Assembly (NCBI RefSeq): GCF_900112795.1
Contig: NZ_FONA01000018.1
Coordinates: 1 to 64,000, forward strand
Direction of reading: 5' to 3'
DNA: 64,000 nt
DNA from: Thermophagus xiamenensis
GTDB lineage: Bacteria; Bacteroidota; Bacteroidia; Bacteroidales; Marinilabiliaceae
Shown: piece after piece, positions 14,187 through 60,244 of the stretch
Position numbering within the stretch: the stretch's first letter is position 1
How the letters are laid out: the number at the start of each line of letters is the position of its first letter
The notes under the pieces: model-generated
Told to the model about the DNA's origin: nothing
The model's input: only the letters and a program-made list of their open reading frames with translations
The model's database searches: none
Position numbers and translations under genes: made by a program

Positions 14187-14391
14187 AGTTTTATTTTGAG
14201 CTGTAAAAATACAAAAAAGCTGTGTAAAGTATGGAGCTAACGCACTATTTTTGTCATTTAATGGTCGGACAATTGAATGGGTTGTTTGGTGGCTATAAGC
14301 TCAAAACGATTTTGCAGGCGGCATGATATAGCTTTACTGGTTTCATGATTGGAAATAACTTTTAATCGTATTAATATTATCTATGTTGTTG

Positions 14392-14466
14392 TCCGAAAGG
14401 AACTCGTATGGCTTAACCAATTTTATGCATCTTATTTAATGACCAAAGCTGCCATGTTCGTTTCAT
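14392..14466 (-). repeat. Dispersed hairpin repeat A, single diverged copy
   Basis: Within the 350-bp divergent gap between DUF1599 and folP lies one copy of the A element in reverse orientation. From left to right it has the right arm (CCGAAAGGAACTCGTATGGC), a spacer containing ACCAAAGCTG, and the left arm (GCCATGTTCGTTTCAT). The internal CTTTTG-CAAAAG hairpin seen in other copies is eroded. The rest of the gap (14187-14391) shows no other structure that I can support. Confidence 0.75.
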
Positions 14467-14536: not shown

Positions 14537-15406
14537 ATGAAGAATTTTGAAGTAAAAAATAGTTGTTTAGCCAATAGGTTTACAATAAATTGCCGAGGCA
14601 AATTAATAGATCTTTCTAAGCCGGTAGTGATGGGAATTTTAAACCTTACGCCCGACAGTTTTTATTCCGGAAGCAGGATTACCACACTGGATGATTCGGT
14701 GCAACGGGTGGAGGAGATAATATCGGAAGGCGGCGTAATAGTTGATATCGGCGCTTATTCGTCTCGTCCCGGTGCCAATGATGTTTCGGAACAGGAAGAA
14801 GGACGTCGCCTTTGGCCAATATTGGACGCTATTCGAAAGCGTTGGCCTGACATTATAATATCTGTTGACACGTTTCGTAGTACCATAGCTCAAAAGGCGG
14901 TAGCCGAATATGAGGTGGATATTATTAATGATATCTCTGCCGGGATGATGGATGCAGCCATGTTTGAGACCATTGCACGACTGAATGTTCCTTACATATT
15001 GATGCATATGAAGGGGACACCTCAAAATATGCAGAAGCACCCCCAATATGAGGATGTTACCGGTGAAGTGTTGTTGTTTTTGTCGGAAAAGGTTAACCAG
15101 TTACGAGCATTGGGTGTTGCTGATATAATAATAGACCCTGGCTTTGGATTTGGTAAAACTCTAGAGCATAATTATCAATTATTGAGGGATTTGCAGCAGT
15201 TTAGGATGTTTGAGTTGCCTCTGTTGGTCGGGGTGTCGCGTAAGTCTATGATATATAATGCACTAAACTCTAAACCCGAGGAGGCTCTCAATGGTACCAC
15301 TGTTTTGCATGCATGGGCTTTGACCAAAGGAGCAAACATTTTAAGGGTGCATGATGTGAAAGAAGCTGTAGAATGTGTTAAATTAGTATCAAAAATTATG
15401 GAATAA
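14537..15406 (+). CDS. folP: Dihydropteroate synthase
   Basis: The enzyme condenses p-aminobenzoate with dihydropterin pyrophosphate in folate synthesis and is the sulfonamide target. The 289-residue product carries all family hallmarks in order: MGILNLTPDSFYSGSR, VDIGAYSSRPGA, IISVDTFRS, DIINDISAG, MHMKGTPQNMQ, IIDPGFGFGKT and VGVSRKSM. Length is normal. The ATG at 14537 is preceded by AGAAGG. It reads towards cdaA; folP and cdaA are neighbours in many Bacteroidota, but here a 673-bp repeat-filled gap separates them. Confidence 0.96.
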   Translation: MKNFEVKNSCLANRFTINCRGKLIDLSKPVVMGILNLTPDSFYSGSRITTLDDSVQRVEEIISEGGVIVDIGAYSSRPGANDVSEQEEGRRLWPILDAIRKRWPDIIISVDTFRSTIAQKAVAEYEVDIINDISAGMMDAAMFETIARLNVPYILMHMKGTPQNMQKHPQYEDVTGEVLLFLSEKVNQLRALGVADIIIDPGFGFGKTLEHNYQLLRDLQQFRMFELPLLVGVSRKSMIYNALNSKPEEALNGTTVLHAWALTKGANILRVHDVKEAVECVKLVSKIME

Positions 15407-15430
15407 AATGAGCCTGACCTACAAAACTAA

Positions 15431-15863
15431 GGCAGAAGTGCACAGGCCGAAGGCAGAAGAAGTCAATAGTTATTAGTCAACAGTCATTAGTGTTAATGGA
15501 CTAGTGACTAATGACTAACCACTAATGACTACTTTTAAGAAACAATATATCAAATGAAGTAAGTAAAATTTATACGGATGAAACGAGCATGACAATGAGA
15601 GATTTTCACAAAAGAGAATGTATAAAACTCTTTGTCATGCGAGTTCCATCCGGCCCATAACTTGGATAAATTTTATACGGATGAAACGAGCATGGCAGCT
15701 TTTGCCACAAAAGAACATGTATAAATTTTATTAAGCCATGCGAGTTCCATTCGGCCAATGAGTTAAATAAATTATATACGAATGAAACGAGCATGGCGAC
15801 TTTTGCCACAAAAGAGCATGTATAAAATGATATAGGCAGAAGTGCACAGGCAGAAGGCAGAAG
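15431..15863 (+). repeat. Composite repeat: B, C, linker, three tandem A elements, B
   Basis: The largest copy of the dispersed repeat family. Module B (15431-15459) is built from GGCAGAA heptamers. Module C (15461-15532) is a long hairpin of TTAGTCA-type heptamers and their complement. After a linker, three A elements follow with ATGAAACGAGCATG at 15578, 15681 and 15782 (periods 103 and 101). In the first A element the arms 15575-15595 and 15632-15652 are 21 nt each and pair at 18 positions. A second B module (15835-15863) follows the third A, which has lost its right arm. No ORF of interest is present. Confidence 0.92.
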
Positions 15864-16079
15864 TGAGATTTATCGATTTTATGATTGCGGGTTGGGAAAT
15901 TTCCCCTTTAGGGGATTAAGGGGTGAGGGATGGCCATAATGGACTTTAAACTAATTATATAAGTAAATTTTATACGAATGAAAACTTTGTTTTTTCTCTA
16001 TTGATTGGAAAAGTAAGCACTAATATTTTAAATAGAATTACAGGGAATGAAGACACAAGTAAAATTATAAAGAATTAGT
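15864..16079. other. Leader of cdaA with short palindrome and partial repeat
   Basis: A CCCCTTTAGGGG palindrome lies at 15903-15914. A short partial A element (AAATTTTATACGAATGAAAA) occurs near 15964. No exact -7 box is apparent upstream of cdaA. Confidence 0.45.
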
Positions 16080-20093: not shown

Positions 20094-21005
20094 TTATGAC
20101 CTTGGATGGTACTGAATAATGGTATTTTTCAGGTACTCTTTATCCAGATGGGTATAAATTTCCGTTGTAATGATTGATTCGTGCCCCAGCATTTCCTGAA
20201 CCGCTCTCAGGTTTGCACCTCCATCGATGAGGTGGGTAGCAAATGAATGACGGAAAGTGTGAGGACTGATATTCTTTTCAATTCCTAATTTTCTGGTAAT
20301 GTTTTTAATAATCGTAAAAATCATTACTCTTGAAAGCTTTTTACCTCGTCGATTTAAGAAAAGAATATCTTCGTGGTCGGGGTGAATTTTTAAATTCCGC
20401 CGATATTCGCTAAGATAAAGGTTAATTTCCTTTATGGCTTTGGTACTGATGGGAACTAACCTTTCTTTACTTCCTTTGCCTTCAATTTTAACAAACCCCG
20501 ACTCAAAGAAGAGGTTTGAAATTTTCAGGTCAATCAGTTCGGAAACCCTGAGGCCGCAGCTGTATAAAGTTTCAAGAATGGCCTTGTTGCGTTGTCCTTC
20601 CGGTTTTTTTGTGTCGACCGCATTAATAATGGTATCAATTTCTTCGACCGAAAGAATTTCCGGAAGTTTGCGCCCCACTTTAGGGGTTTCAAGCAGTGCA
20701 GTAGGATCTCTGTCGACTTTTTCTTCTATCAACAAATATTTATAAAACGATTTAATACCACTAATAATACGGGCCTGGGTCCGTGGGCTGATGCCTTTAT
20801 CATTAACCCACTCAATCATTTCTTTTAGGTGCTCAAGTTTTACTTGCTCAGGACTAACATCATATTCCTTCTCTTTTAAAAACTGAACCAGTTTAAGAAG
20901 GTCAGTGATGTAGGCATGAATGGAATTATCCGAAAGGCCCTTTTCTACTTTTAAATAATTCCGAAATCCGTTAATTTCATTTTCCCAATTCATGTCGCTG
21001 TTCAT
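20094..21005 (-). CDS. xerD: Tyrosine recombinase XerD
   Basis: XerD resolves chromosome dimers at dif together with XerC. The 303-residue product has the N-terminal SAM-like core-binding domain (to about residue 100) and a catalytic domain with every tyrosine-recombinase residue in place: Arg153 (SCGLRVSEL), Lys177 (EGKGSKERLVP), His249 and Arg252 (SPHTFRHSFATHL), His275 (MLGHESI) and Tyr284 (TEIYTHL). Size and the absence of integrase-type arm domains argue for the housekeeping Xer class, not a phage integrase. A second ATG at 20993 is an equally plausible start. It is divergent from aroQ, an arrangement familiar in Bacteroidota. Confidence 0.9.
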   Translation of the reverse strand: MNSDMNWENEINGFRNYLKVEKGLSDNSIHAYITDLLKLVQFLKEKEYDVSPEQVKLEHLKEMIEWVNDKGISPRTQARIISGIKSFYKYLLIEEKVDRDPTALLETPKVGRKLPEILSVEEIDTIINAVDTKKPEGQRNKAILETLYSCGLRVSELIDLKISNLFFESGFVKIEGKGSKERLVPISTKAIKEINLYLSEYRRNLKIHPDHEDILFLNRRGKKLSRVMIFTIIKNITRKLGIEKNISPHTFRHSFATHLIDGGANLRAVQEMLGHESIITTEIYTHLDKEYLKNTIIQYHPRS

Positions 21006-33205: not shown

Positions 33206-34153
33206 TTATTTTTGATTTTTCAGCAATTGATCAAAATATTCGATGGTTTTGGTCAACCCTTCGCGCAATTGCACTTTGGGTTCCCAATTATTCAACTCTT
33301 TTTTTGCCAGCGAAATATCGGGCTGACGCTGTGTGGGGTCATCTTCGGGTAAGGGTTTAAAAACAATTTTGGACCGAGACCCGGTTAAGTCAAGTACTTC
33401 TTTGGCCAGTTCGAGCATAGAAAACTCATTGGGGTTTCCGATGTTTACCGGTCCGCAGAAATCTTCACGCGTTTCCATCATTCGCATCATGGCCTCAACA
33501 AGGTCGTCGATGTACTGAAAACTTCTGGTTTGATGCCCGTCACCAAAGATGGTTATGGGTTGATTTTTCAGTGCCTGAACGATAAAGTTGGAAACCACCC
33601 GTCCGTCATTGGGATGCATCCGTGGTCCGTAAGTATTGAAGATTCTGATGATTTTTATGGTTACCTGATTTTGTCGGTGATAGTTCATAAACAAACTTTC
33701 GGCACACCGTTTCCCTTCATCATAACAAGAGCGGACACCTATAGGATTAACATTACCCCAATAATTTTCGACCTGAGGGTGTGTCAGCGGATCACCATAC
33801 ACTTCGCTGGTAGATGCTTGCAAAATTTTCGCTTTAATGCGTTTGGCCAACCCCAACATATTGATGGCACCCATCACCGAGGTTTTGATGGTTTTTATGG
33901 GATTGTATTGATAGTGAATGGGAGAGGCGGGACAGGCAAGGTTATATATTTCGTCCACCTCCGCGAAATAGGGATGAGTAACATCATGCCTTACCAACTC
34001 GAAGTATGGACTATCCAACAGGTGAATGATGTTTTGTTTCGACCCGGTGAAATAATTATCAAGGCAGATTACATCATGTCCTTGTGCAATAAGAGTATCA
34101 CACAAATGCGACCCGATGAATCCGGCACCTCCGGTAACTAATATTCGTTTCAT
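33206..34153 (-). CDS. UDP-glucuronate decarboxylase (UDP-xylose synthase)
   Basis: The extended SDR converts UDP-glucuronate to UDP-xylose with bound NAD. The 315-residue product has [49 protein letters not shown], the catalytic [12 protein letters not shown] (YxxxK) and [18 protein letters not shown], a set that matches UXS and not RmlB or UDP-glucose epimerase. The preceding gene is ugd, which makes its substrate, supporting the call. A dispersed repeat of about 150 bp separates the two. A dTDP-glucose dehydratase role replacing rfbB is unlikely on these motifs. Confidence 0.92.
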
Positions 34154-34200
34154 TAGAGTTTTTGATTTACTTGTTTTATTGAACTATTGGTGCTTAGAAT

Positions 34201-34352
34201 TAGTCATTAGTGGTTAGTCGTTAGTCACTAGTTCATTAACACTAATGACTGTTCACTAATGACTATTGACTACTTCTGCCTTCTGTCTGTGCACTTCTGC
34301 CTTTGTCTTTTATACATGTTCTTTTGTGGCGAAAGCCGTCATGCTCATTTCA
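34201..34352 (-). repeat. Dispersed repeat, C-B-A left half in reverse orientation, inside the sugar operon
   Basis: Left to right: a C hairpin (TAGTCATTAGTGGTTAG to ACTATTGACTA), a reversed B (CTTCTGCCTTCTGTCTGTGC), then the A left half reversed (ATACATGTTCTTTTGTGG, GTCATGCTCATTTCAT). It stops right at the ugd stop codon (34353). The A right arm is missing. It is the only large gap in an otherwise tight five-gene run. Confidence 0.88.
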
Positions 34353-35681
34353 TTATCTTTTATTAAGAGAGCGTCCAATTCCGAAGTAATCAAACCCTTT
34401 TTCTTCCATTTCGGCAGCATCATAAATATTACGACCATCGAAAACCACTTTATGGTTCATTAACTTGGCCATCACTTTGTAATTGGGGATACGGAATTCG
34501 GGCCATTCAGTTAAGAGTAATAAACCGTCGGCATCTATGAGCACGTCATAAGGATCTTGTCCATACTGTATGGTGTTGCCAAACTCTTTTTTGGCTTCGT
34601 TCATTGCAACGGGGTCGTAAGCCTTTACTTTGGCACCGGCTTGCATCAACTCGTTAATGATAACTTTAGAGGGCGCTTCACGCATATCATCGGTATGTGG
34701 CTTAAAGCTAAGGCCCCAAATGGCAAAGGTTTTTCCTTTTACATCGTCATTAAAGTATTTTTTAACTTTTGTTACCAGGATGCGTTTTTGGTCTTCATTG
34801 ATGTCTTCAACAGCCTGGAGCAACCGCAAATGGTAATTGTATGATTTAGCTGTTCGAATAATGGCTTTAACGTCTTTGGGGAAACAACTACCTCCATAAC
34901 CAATGCCGGGATAGATAAATTTGTTGCCGATGCGGCTGTCACTTCCAATACCTTTCCGTACCATATTAACATCGGCCCCAACCAGTTCGCACAAATTGGC
35001 AATATCGTTCATGAAACTAATTTTTGTGGCCAACATGGCATTGGCAGCATATTTGGTAAGTTCGGCCGAGGGGATGTCCATGAACAATATGGGGTGGTTG
35101 TTTAAAAGGAAAGGTTTATACAGTCGACGAATCACTTTTTCGGCTTCTTCGGAATCGGTACCCACAACAATGCGGTCGGGTTTCAGGAAATCTTCTACTG
35201 CATTACCTTCTTTCAGGAATTCCGGGTTGGAAGCCACGTAAAAGGTTATGTCTACGCCTCGTTTTTCCAACTCTTCGCGTATCGCTTTACGTACTTTTTC
35301 GGCGGTACCAATGGGCACGGTACTTTTGGTAACTACCACCATGGTGTGGTCGAGGTGTTTGCCTATTTCGTGGGCAACATTTAACACGTGACTTAAATCG
35401 GCACTTCCGTCTTCGCCGGGAGGTGTTCCTACTGCGATAAAAATCACTTCAGCCTGGTCAAGGCTTTCTTTCAGGCTGGTGGTGAAATGTAGCCTGCCCT
35501 TTTCAACATTGTTTTTTATCATATTTTCCAGGCCCGGCTCATATATGGGTATTATACCTTTTTTAAGTTTGGATATTTTTTCTTCGTCAATATCCACGCA
35601 TGTAACATTGACGCCTGTATCGGAAAAACATGTTCCTGTTACTAAACCTACGTAACCGGTTCCTACTATCGATATTTTCAT
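34353..35681 (-). CDS. ugd: UDP-glucose 6-dehydrogenase
   Basis: The enzyme oxidises UDP-glucose to UDP-glucuronate with two NAD+. The 442-residue product has the Rossmann motif VGTGYVGLVTG at 5-15, VDIDEEKI, VGTPPGEDGSADL, FLKEGNAVEDF and the catalytic Cys in GYGGSCFPKDVKA (about residue 263), then FKPHTDDMREAPS and FDGRNIYD. Complete and of normal length. First gene of the minus-strand cluster; together with the next gene it makes UDP-xylose from UDP-glucose. Repeats flank it on both sides (34201-34352 and 35716-35788). Confidence 0.96.
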   Translation of the reverse strand: MKISIVGTGYVGLVTGTCFSDTGVNVTCVDIDEEKISKLKKGIIPIYEPGLENMIKNNVEKGRLHFTTSLKESLDQAEVIFIAVGTPPGEDGSADLSHVLNVAHEIGKHLDHTMVVVTKSTVPIGTAEKVRKAIREELEKRGVDITFYVASNPEFLKEGNAVEDFLKPDRIVVGTDSEEAEKVIRRLYKPFLLNNHPILFMDIPSAELTKYAANAMLATKISFMNDIANLCELVGADVNMVRKGIGSDSRIGNKFIYPGIGYGGSCFPKDVKAIIRTAKSYNYHLRLLQAVEDINEDQKRILVTKVKKYFNDDVKGKTFAIWGLSFKPHTDDMREAPSKVIINELMQAGAKVKAYDPVAMNEAKKEFGNTIQYGQDPYDVLIDADGLLLLTEWPEFRIPNYKVMAKLMNHKVVFDGRNIYDAAEMEEKGFDYFGIGRSLNKR

Positions 35682-41228: not shown

Positions 41229-41247
41229 AGATAATTGTATCTTTTTT
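41229..41247 (+). terminator. Weak terminator after guaA
   Basis: AGATA-ATTG-TATCT forms a short 5-bp stem followed by a T-run, 21 bases after the guaA stop. Short stem, so only tentative. Confidence 0.4.
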
Positions 41248-41250
41248 ATT

Positions 41251-41350
41251 CGTATAAAATTTGTTTAACTCATTGGCCTAATGGAACGCGCATGGCTTAG
41301 CCAAATTTATACATGTCCTTTTGTGGCAAAAGTCGCCATGCTCGTTTCAT
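41251..41350 (-). repeat. Dispersed hairpin repeat A, complete single copy (reverse)
   Basis: An intact A element without B or C: right arm CCTAATGGAACGCGCATGGC, spacer with ATACATGTCCTTTTG, internal hairpin CTTTTG-TGG-CAAAAG, left arm GCCATGCTCGTTTCAT. The two arms pair with only two mismatches in the core, the best-paired copy in this window. The rest of the 387-bp gap holds a perfect 14-bp palindrome, ATATTGGCCAATAT, at 41408-41421. Confidence 0.88.
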
Positions 41351-53877: not shown

Positions 53878-54086
53878 ATAAATCAAGCGAGCATGGCAAC
53901 TATTGTCACAAAAGGGAATGTATATAGGCAGAAGTGCACAGGCAGAAGGCAGAAGAAATTTCTAGTCATTAGTCAACAGTCATTATTCATTAGTTAATCA
54001 ACACTAATGTCAAATAACTAACCACTAATCACTAACTTTAAGTCCCATTAGGCCAATAACTCAAGTGATTTTTATACGAATAAAAA
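53878..54086 (+). repeat. Dispersed repeat, A left half - B - C - A right half
   Basis: The most informative copy. The A left half (AAGCGAGCATGGCAAC and an eroded hairpin) runs to 53926, B is at 53927-53955, C at about 53963-54038, and then the A right arm appears (AGTCCCATTAGGCCAATAAC) up to ATACGAAT at 54086. B and C thus sit inside an A element, in place of its usual spacer. The two halves of A are still in the correct order and orientation. Confidence 0.88.
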
Positions 54087-56546: not shown

Positions 56547-56600
56547 CTAGTTTCATTAGACCAATAAGTTAATCAAATTATATACTGATGAAGCATAACC
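56547..56600 (+). repeat. Repeat A fragment overlapping the start of comB
   Basis: TAGTTTCATTAGACCAATAAG, then AATTATATACTGATGAA, corresponds to the A right arm tail followed by the start of the next A left arm (ATACGAATGAAACGAGCATGG in other copies, differing at several bases). The ATG of comB at 56588 coincides with the ATG of the A element's ATGAAACG. Confidence 0.65.
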
Positions 56601-57325
56601 TGGAAGTTTGTTTTTCTCCTGCGTTATATGATTTATACCACCGGCCGGAAGCTGTAGTGGTTGTTATTGATGTTTTAAGAGCTACCTCGGCCATTTGTAC
56701 AGCATTTATGAATGGTGCAAAGCATATCATTCCGGTTGGAGATTTGGAAGAAGCCAGAGCCTGGAAAGCTAAAGGCCATTTGGTGGCCGCCGAACGCGAT
56801 GGAATTGTTTTAGATTTTGCAGATTTTGGAAATTCACCGTTTAATTTTACCCCCGAACGTGTACAGCAACATGATATAGTTTATAGTACCACCAATGGTA
56901 CCAAGGCCATTCATAAGGCTGCATCGGCTTATGCCGTAGCTATCGGATCATATTTGAATCTTTCGGCCCTTTCGTTTTGGTTGCAAGAGCAACATCGGGA
57001 TGTGATTATTCTCTGTGCGGCATGGAAAGATAAATTCAGTCTGGAAGATGCTTTGTTCGCCGGTGCTTTATCGAAAAAGTTGTTGGATTCGGGATTATTC
57101 ACCACTATTTGTGATTCAGTTCATGCTTCACTTGATCTTTGGAAGTCTGCTCAGCCTAATGTTTATCGGTATATTTTAAAGGCAGCACAAAAACAACGAC
57201 TGGCAAAAAACGGTTTAGACGATGTAATTGAATTCTGTCATACCCCTGATCAAACATCCATCGTTCCTGTGTTAAAGGGTGACCGTCTGGTCGGAGAAAC
57301 TGTCGGGAAGATTTCCTATATTTGA
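56588..57325 (+). CDS. comB: 2-Phosphosulfolactate phosphatase family protein
   Basis: ComB removes phosphate from 2-phosphosulfolactate, a step towards coenzyme M in archaea; bacterial homologues are common and often lack the rest of the pathway. The 245-residue product has VVIDVLRATSAI, VAAERDGIVL, STTNGTKAI and CHTPDQTSIVPVL, which are the family's Mg2+ and phosphate-site blocks. ComA and ComC are absent nearby, so the substrate in this organism is uncertain (sulfolactate or another phosphoester). The start codon lies inside a repeat A fragment. The glycosyltransferase gene starts 16 bp after its stop, so the two are probably cotranscribed. Confidence 0.88.
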   Translation: MKHNLEVCFSPALYDLYHRPEAVVVVIDVLRATSAICTAFMNGAKHIIPVGDLEEARAWKAKGHLVAAERDGIVLDFADFGNSPFNFTPERVQQHDIVYSTTNGTKAIHKAASAYAVAIGSYLNLSALSFWLQEQHRDVIILCAAWKDKFSLEDALFAGALSKKLLDSGLFTTICDSVHASLDLWKSAQPNVYRYILKAAQKQRLAKNGLDDVIEFCHTPDQTSIVPVLKGDRLVGETVGKISYI

Positions 57326-59841: not shown

Positions 59842-59954
59842 CCGGAATTGACTTTCTCATTTGGTCTCTAAAATCATATAGCATTTCAATAGCTTTGATT
59901 TAGGGATTTTTATTATTATCCGGAAATTTTCATAAGTATATAATTTATCAAAAT

Positions 59955-60244
59955 TATTGGCCGAATAGAATTCGCATGACCATCATTTCCTACATGTTCT
60001 GGTTGATCTGGTTGAGACAAAATTTCTTGGTCATGCTCGTTTTATTCGTATAAAATTTACTTACTTCATTGATATATTGTTTCTTAAAAGTAGTCATTAG
60101 TGGTTAGTCATTAGTCACTAGTCCATTAACACTAATGACTGTTGACTAATGACTATAAACATTTTCTGCCTTCTGCCTGTGCACTTCTGCCTTTATCCAT
60201 GTTCTTGTTGTGTCAAACTTTCTGATCATGCTTGTTTTATTTGC
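59955..60244 (-). repeat. Composite repeat: A, linker, C, B, A left half (reverse)
   Basis: Read on the minus strand, the order is A left half, B, C, linker (TTTTAAGAAACAATATATC and TGAAGTAAGTAAA), then a complete A of the second subfamily at about 59955-60050. The same B-C-linker-A order occurs at 15431-15600, so the composite has moved or been copied as a unit. In the complete A the arms CGAATAAAACGAGCATGACC and GGTCATGCGAATTCTATTCG pair with the same central mismatches as other copies, and two pair changes compensate each other. Confidence 0.9.

Follow-up and report, generated by a model that had tools for sequence, protein, structure and literature searches.

A mobile DNA element of about 100 nucleotides inserting exactly at gene start codons in Bacteroidia

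A short repeat in a 64,000-nt stretch of Thermophagus xiamenensis DNA (contig NZ_FONA01000018.1, positions 1 to 64,000; hereafter the window) turned out to be a mobile DNA element of about 100 nt, which is present in hundreds of copies and inserts exactly at gene start codons. We refer to it as A. In our judgement, A is probably a non-autonomous mini-element of the Bacteroidia, in which an internal arm acts as a guide by pairing with both ends of the element and which most likely moves as single-stranded DNA in the manner of IS200/IS605 elements, employing a transposase supplied in trans.

The unit consists of the target word ATGAA, the sequence ACGAGC…, the inner arm GAGTTCCATNNG, a linker and the right end CN'N'ATGAA, and is mostly 88-103 nt long; in the window, the arms of the hairpin read ATGAAACGAGCATGRC and GYCATGCGAGTTCCAT. 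Alignment of the first A copies (39 in the own genome of the window, G000, and 13 in genome G013) revealed a left flank that is strongly conserved at ATGAA only. In both genomes, A begins at ACGAGC and terminates with TTATAC-N'N'-ATGAA. Judged from these alignments, whatever lies to the left of ATGAA is part of the flank or of a preceding element, and the unit starts at a different point from the boundary drawn in the initial annotation. Copies occur singly or in tandem with a spacing of about 101 nt. The central stem mismatch, which had been noticed before as recurrent, is a tandem GA/GA kept on its 5' side in 219 and on its 3' side in 218 of the 222 distinct copies, and an additional A.C mismatch of the stem is kept in 213.

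In the window, we counted 14 half-sites compared to 1.47 expected. The own genome assembly searched (3.9 Mb, 58 contigs) contains the half-site with up to 3 mismatches at 202 + 169 places, compared to 3 + 1 for a reversed control pattern; for its 166 left ends, the distance mostly falls at 100-119 nt (70 cases) or at 180-219 nt (50 cases), and 21 of them have no right end. Two longer groups of relatives, the B and C types, have the left ~45 nt and the right ~25 nt in common with A, contain other middles and mostly measure 160-220 nt overall; the middles of B types vary in length, with one copy (L147) reaching about 370 nt. Both types share these ends and have spread as well, yet most copies lack the arm, which counts against a guide function. 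At the gathering score, Rfam matched only two tRNAs in the window and left the A hairpin unmatched. A is also no typical MITE, as its ends are not inverted copies of each other and its flanking word is fixed as ATGAA.

Table 1 Copies of A, B-type and C-type relatives and further features in the window
Feature	Position	Strand	Remarks
A copy 1	15578-15685	+	left end ATGAA at 15578-15582; right end CGG-ATGAA ending at 15685
A copy 1, stem	15575-15599 / 15628-15652	+	arms 84% complementary, 28 nt between them
A copy 1, arm	15639-15649	+	GCGAGTTCCAT, then CCG
A copy 2	15681-15786	+	ATGAA common with copy 1; arm at 15740-15750, then TCG; stem tip GCATGGC/GCCATGC
A copy 2, right end	15782-15786	+	CGA-ATGAA, own end
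C-type relative	15782-15982	+	left ~45 nt and right ~25 nt as A, middle differs
C-type relative, right end	15978-15982	+	ATGAA; frame stops after 8 codons; not a listed ORF start
B-type relative	15403-15582	+	decayed left end, heptamer-repeat middle; right ATGAA common with A copy 1
A element	41245-41350	-	between guaA and NMN transporter gene; left end ATGAA, right end ATAAA; arm TTCCATTAG mismatches own right end CGA; tip GCATGGC/GCCATGC
A element (59955 copy)	59929-60045	-	left end ATAAA, arm TTCTATTCG, right end CTTATGAA; tip GCATGACCA/TGGTCATGC; sole ATA/TAT case
B-type element	60041-60241	-	joined to the left of the A element at 59929-60045
B-type element	34149-34353	-	left end overlaps upstream ORF stop codon by one base; right-end ATGAA is start codon of ORF 33206-34153
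B-type element	53882-54084	+	guide-like stretch CCCATTAGGCC kept before right end ATAAA
Decayed A right end	56575-56592	+	ATGAA at 56588 is start codon of ORF 56588-57325
Decayed A element	14372-14466	-	between DUF1599 gene and folP (best folP relative among the matches listed: Marinilabilia salmonicolor, 67% identity); lower limit approximate
Heptamer-like repeats inside B types	15430-15576, 34150-34310, 53920-54045, 60046-60200		CTAATGA/CTAACCA with GGCAGAAGTGCACAGGCAGAAG
Chromosomal XerD-type recombinase	20094-21005	-	352.2 bits, cut-off 329.6

The arms of the hairpin had initially been described as pairing in the same register while their sequence changes. We analysed this on copies identified by their left end, their arm and the nearest C-N-N-ATGAA further downstream; pairing played no part in the selection, which yielded 231 copies (222 distinct) from 32 genomes and 13 genera of the family. 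The two variable arm bases NN were Watson-Crick complementary to N'N' of the copy's own right end in 190 of the 222 distinct copies, while shuffling of right ends among copies gave 36 pairings on average and 52 at most. Sixteen more copies pair by G.T and another 16 are unpaired; these 32 copies without a Watson-Crick pair count against the guide model. The bases left of ATG, to which the initial annotation had assigned the base of the stem, match the arm in only 41 of the 222, so that the basal partner had been misassigned. Ten NN/N'N' pair types were found, six of them with at least 10 copies in more than one genus. As control for phylogeny we shuffled within genera, using no tree, and the observed pairing exceeded the shuffles at both NN positions (199 compared to a mean of 113 and a maximum of 131; 210 compared to 157 and 172). 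At the nine pairs of the stem tip, the observed values lie above the within-genus maximum for pairs 1, 3, 6 and 8, equal it for pair 2 and do not exceed it for pairs 4, 5, 7 and 9, indicating that much of the tip signal lies between genera; the tip variants GCATG/CATGC and GCCA/TGGC also compensate largely between genera. These shuffles partly answer the objection, raised together with the initial claim of compensatory changes, that covariation might be no greater than expected from phylogeny. The basal change from ATG/CAT to ATA/TAT is real in the copy in which it had been spotted, but constitutes one case: ten distinct copies depart from ATG or CAT at the base and one keeps the pair by a two-sided change.

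A balanced set of 59 copies from 12 genera (lengths 86-104, arms ending in G) had 95.3% of its cells paired, with a covariation score of 0.305 compared to 0.096 after shuffling and 0.003-0.046 when the registers were slid by 1-3 columns. Changes on both sides affected 97 cells (38.7 shuffled). Two weak measures gave five pairs with two-sided change compared to 4.4 shuffled (reached by 181 of 500 shuffles) and 15 further pair types compared to 12.5 (reached by 7 of 500). In the right-end helix, 96.6% of the cells paired and 50 cells carried a two-sided change; in the left helix, 94.9% paired. Without any structure given, RNAalifold paired AAC-GCCA with TGGC-GTT and the arm CATNNG with CN'N'ATG in the integrated form. 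An inner CTTTTG-CAAAAG hairpin, correctly reported for the window copies, has no counterpart in the RNAalifold consensus of the 59 copies. Of 60 sampled copies, 45 were predicted to be more stable in the joined form, in which the right end lies next to the left, than when integrated. The bottom strand (mean z -2.68) and the top strand (-2.25) hardly differ in folding, and the wobbles at ten positions (G.T 119 compared to 192 expected, A.C 69 compared to 123) do not tell the folding strand apart. The described pairing in constant register is confirmed, and the alignments support selection on pairing far beyond one genome. That the fold rather than the sequence is kept was an apt description with respect to selection on pairing, but there is a better reading than a static hairpin maintained as such: the arm can pair with either end of its element, which is mobile.

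Of 158 array-final copies, 110 (70%) have a right end whose ATG opens an ORF at least 60 codons long; the remaining ATGAA words of these loci do so in 363 of 1861 cases. An in-frame stop lies 6-7 codons upstream in 62 of the 110 ORFs. The proportion differs between genera (33/36 in g13, 9/9 in g32, 8/20 in g14 and 0/2 in g9) and amounts to 21/40 in the own genome. ATGAA occurs 289 times in the window, with 240 words inside ORFs, 39 in intergenic regions and 10 at gene starts. Measured against these 10 start-codon and 39 intergenic words, start codons are over-represented among the tolerated sites (Fisher p = 1.5e-9 for all copies and 0.002 for the own genome, the yardstick being one 64-kb window of one genome).

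Empty sites were found at two genes. In genome G040, the element sits between ATGAA and the rest of dxs, whereas the 60 nt before the dxs start codon are empty in 13/13 other genomes of the genus searched, with a single ATGAA in 12 of these 13 and flanks that align closely on both sides of the insertion. A native sequence resembling a promoter, TTATTATCTTTG, lies upstream of the insertion. A MATE gene is filled in G055 and empty in four other genomes; on its upstream side an alignment was possible only with G054, by eye, and G056 and G004 align well at the gene side only. Loose flags over 200 nt hit some of the empty loci (left end and arm in L398; left end in L401, L404, L406 and L407), all of which are free of the element over the 60 nt preceding the start codon. 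ATGAA is present at both ends, a pattern that fits insertion at a fixed target and equally a fixed 5-bp duplication. Right ends whose ATGAA starts an ORF, together with empty orthologous sites, point towards a mobile mini-element targeting start codons. Ordinary intergenic palindromes, arising by duplication or as assembly artefact without mobility of their own, would be compatible with the tandem arrays and with identical neighbouring matches such as G007:C1:672027 and 672121, but not with precise insertion at orthologous start codons and with occurrence in 13 genera beside many different ORFs. The empty sites already contradict this explanation, which would need precise deletions instead, and we consider it highly improbable.

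The location at start codons could also be explained by a cis-regulatory RNA leader. In this case, the arm CATNNG would lock the start codon within CN'N'ATG in the mRNA, the upstream ATGAAAC would compete, and usefulness of the switch would preserve the pairing. Such a leader agrees with the RNAalifold prediction for the integrated form, where arm and start codon pair, and also with the ORFs at final right ends, their excess over the sites in the window and the ORF starts at copies from other families (see below). However, pairing is kept about equally in inner copies (62/73), final copies without an ORF (42/48) and final copies with an ORF (95/110), indicating that it is of use to the element itself and not to the gene alone. 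Further, the N-termini listed for the downstream ORFs look diverse, and tandem arrays as well as empty sites favour mobility. No leader peptide is kept from the left ATG, which mostly opens short frames, and element lengths modulo 3 are distributed 70/82/70 for 0/1/2, so a reading frame is not kept either. Hence, we regard a leader as the sole explanation as unlikely. Somewhat less doubtful, though still improbable, appears a combined reading, in which A is a self-guided element targeting the start codon itself, one arm of its single hairpin directing cleavage at both ends and, in the mRNA, also masking or freeing the start codon of the host gene. Some genomes would then have placed a portable translational switch before dozens or even hundreds of genes unrelated to each other, and a so far unrecognised enzyme would move it.

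Within the family, the arm (up to 1 mismatch) was matched in 59 of 71 genomes and 20 of 21 genera. Matches per genome reach 236 + 240 (476, in G031), and the lowest counts may be due to chance, as the reversed control gives 0-3. Outside the family, A appears to be sparse by pattern search: the exact pattern was found in 17 of 395 genomes drawn from the class, 15 of them from other families, with 0 matches for the control. Sixteen of these class-wide loci were examined and 13 parsed, of which 10 keep the pairing and 11 have a right end opening an ORF of at least 60 codons. Loci L424 and L426 from genomes of two families (G106 and G118) have the same element sequence and gene start, which reflects either transfer or mis-binning. 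Three IMG/VR contigs (L298, L299 and L300) carry A, and on the viral contig L298 the right-end ATG opens a 63-codon frame to the contig end. One window copy used as query had no match in plasmid and phage collections, and the pattern found no full element in the named Bacteroidota loci L040-L119 (each about 11 kb or less).

Among the Y1 transposase genes found, none tracks A. The single Y1 match of the own genome is a REP-type protein (locus L031; NF047646, 103.2 bits, cut-off 80). Genome G031, with its 476 arm matches, contains two Y1 matches, one of them nearly full-length in a frame of 159 aa and the other within a frame of 1014 aa, and G007, with 18 arm matches, has no Y1 match at E 0.05. 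Among the flanks of Y1 genes examined, full A-like copies occur in those of L264, L280 and L285 only. An autonomous copy was not seen in the loci examined, where 137 left ends were orphans and 7 of these were followed by a later arm; the distance was 92-284 nt in six cases and 5.1 kb in the seventh, a Pedobacter locus. The reverse transcriptase model PF00078 had no match at E 0.001 in the own genome, G040 and G015 (76% complete), all of which carry A, making a retro-mechanism unlikely. As a side observation, genome G061 yielded 29 reverse-transcriptase and 48 tyrosine-recombinase matches; its multi-copy matches include a XerC-like ORF beside a larger ORF that resembles an IS91-type transposase.

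REP/BIME sequences mobilised by RAYT proteins are short imperfect palindromes between genes, processed as single-stranded DNA according to the accessible part of PMC6006769, and A resembles them as an abundant, short and imperfect intergenic palindrome. A could be the REP sequence of the resident REP-associated tyrosine transposase and be moved by that protein, given that the own genome encodes one and that Bacteroidetes relatives of this protein are reported, in the same accessible text (PMC6006769), to be flanked by atypical structures. In contrast to REP/BIME, A is directional, has defined ends and inserts at ATGAA, and the alignments contain no GT[AG]G tag at the foot of the stem, a tag likewise missing from subclass 2.6 repeats as far as that text extends (PMC6006769). 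In addition, the resident gene (L031:1000-2170) lies between different inverted repeats of the GTTGTGGATTTGTAATCCACAAC type, apparently a second repeat system of the own genome, and its 3.2-kb locus holds only two partial half-site matches (1-3 mismatches). G007 possesses A and lacks a Y1 match, and the two matches of G031 cover other stretches of the model in frames of other lengths than that of the own genome. We therefore give this possibility little credence.

Integron attC sites recombine as single-strand hairpins with an unpaired centre, and their complementarity is completed only upon joining; A is alike, and shares the stem, the unpaired centre and AAC/GTT. A tyrosine recombinase might accordingly recombine the folded single strand of an integron-like cassette into ATGAA sites, and the own genome does encode a XerA/integron-integrase-like recombinase (L288; NF040815, 223.8 bits, cut-off 220). 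This protein, however, scores 212.5 bits against the integron integrase model TIGR02249 (cut-off 265), which no protein of the 14 genomes searched exceeds, while weaker matches at E 0.001 occur in all 14 genomes and in all 14 controls as well. It adjoins an Erm(F)-like gene (L288:539-2328, G000:C28) scoring 553.9 bits against a cut-off of 575 for Erm(F) and 252.1 against 212 for Erm in general. Integron exchange takes place between AA and C of AAC; the base following the right-end ATGAA varies among the listed rows, in which inner and final ends are mixed, and this exchange point thus does not fit. Unlike integron cassettes, A is scattered at start codons. An integron-like origin has, in our estimate, a slim chance of being correct.

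We thus favour transposition as guided single-stranded DNA. A would insert at ATGAA, with start codons reached by preference or by survival, and would leave ATGAA at both ends, so that the start codon of the gene is preserved. As guide, the internal arm GTTCCATNNG would pair with ATGAAAC at the left junction or, alternatively, with CN'N'ATG at the right end. We infer a circular or joined form, in which both pairings would merge into one long hairpin; this would account for the covariation of NN with the right end of its own element rather than with the neighbour on the left. The single strand, putatively the lower one with the order target TTCAT, N'N'G, linker, guide CNNATG, hairpin and TTCAT, would most likely be cleaved next to the guide-paired ends in the IS200/IS605 manner; one hairpin and one guide would serve both ends, with the transposase acting in trans.

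Short derivatives of IS200/IS605 elements are known as PATEs. With IS608 and ISDra2 of this group, A has in common an imperfect hairpin and a fixed short flanking sequence kept at insertion, and by sequence alone its arm behaves as a guide, covarying with the right end and being conserved in its complementarity to the left. IS200/IS605 ends carry two hairpins, whereas A has one conserved stem, one guide for both ends and an alternative partner of the arm in place of two subterminal hairpins; the lower strand of A may be viewed as an IS608 whose left and right ends have been merged into a single hairpin. A also differs in having no internal gene, no identified cognate transposase and a target made up of the start codon plus AA. 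In IS608 and ISDra2, the guide pairs with both cleavage sites and, in ISDra2, with the base just past the cut, as stated in the accessible part of PMC5934647. In A, the guide pairing reaches three bases past the presumed cut; at the right end it would cross the presumed cleavage point, which counts against the guide model.

Small repeats reused beside unrelated genes have also been described in Bacteroidales as putative mobile promoters or MITEs (BrickBuilt; accessible parts of PMC9208149 and PMC4596501), and A is similar in this respect. BrickBuilt repeats lie 49-591 nt from coding sequences (PMC4596501, in the text at hand), whereas A reaches as far as the start codon, replacing the bases before it, and has a fold that covaries. 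Heptamer repeats near start codons, TAACTGA among others, are mentioned in the available section of PMC4679880; the middles of B types likewise hold heptamer-like repeats near start codons, though with different heptamers and inside a larger element. Our literature search, with few subscription papers within reach, retrieved nothing describing A.

A shows how a transposable element can live in dense bacterial genomes: it aims at the start codon and returns it. Annotation of gene starts and 5' leaders as well as studies on translation initiation in these bacteria would be affected by its presence. The covarying guide provides a direct handle for finding the enzyme of A, and A may represent a natural case in which DNA guides insertion at gene starts.
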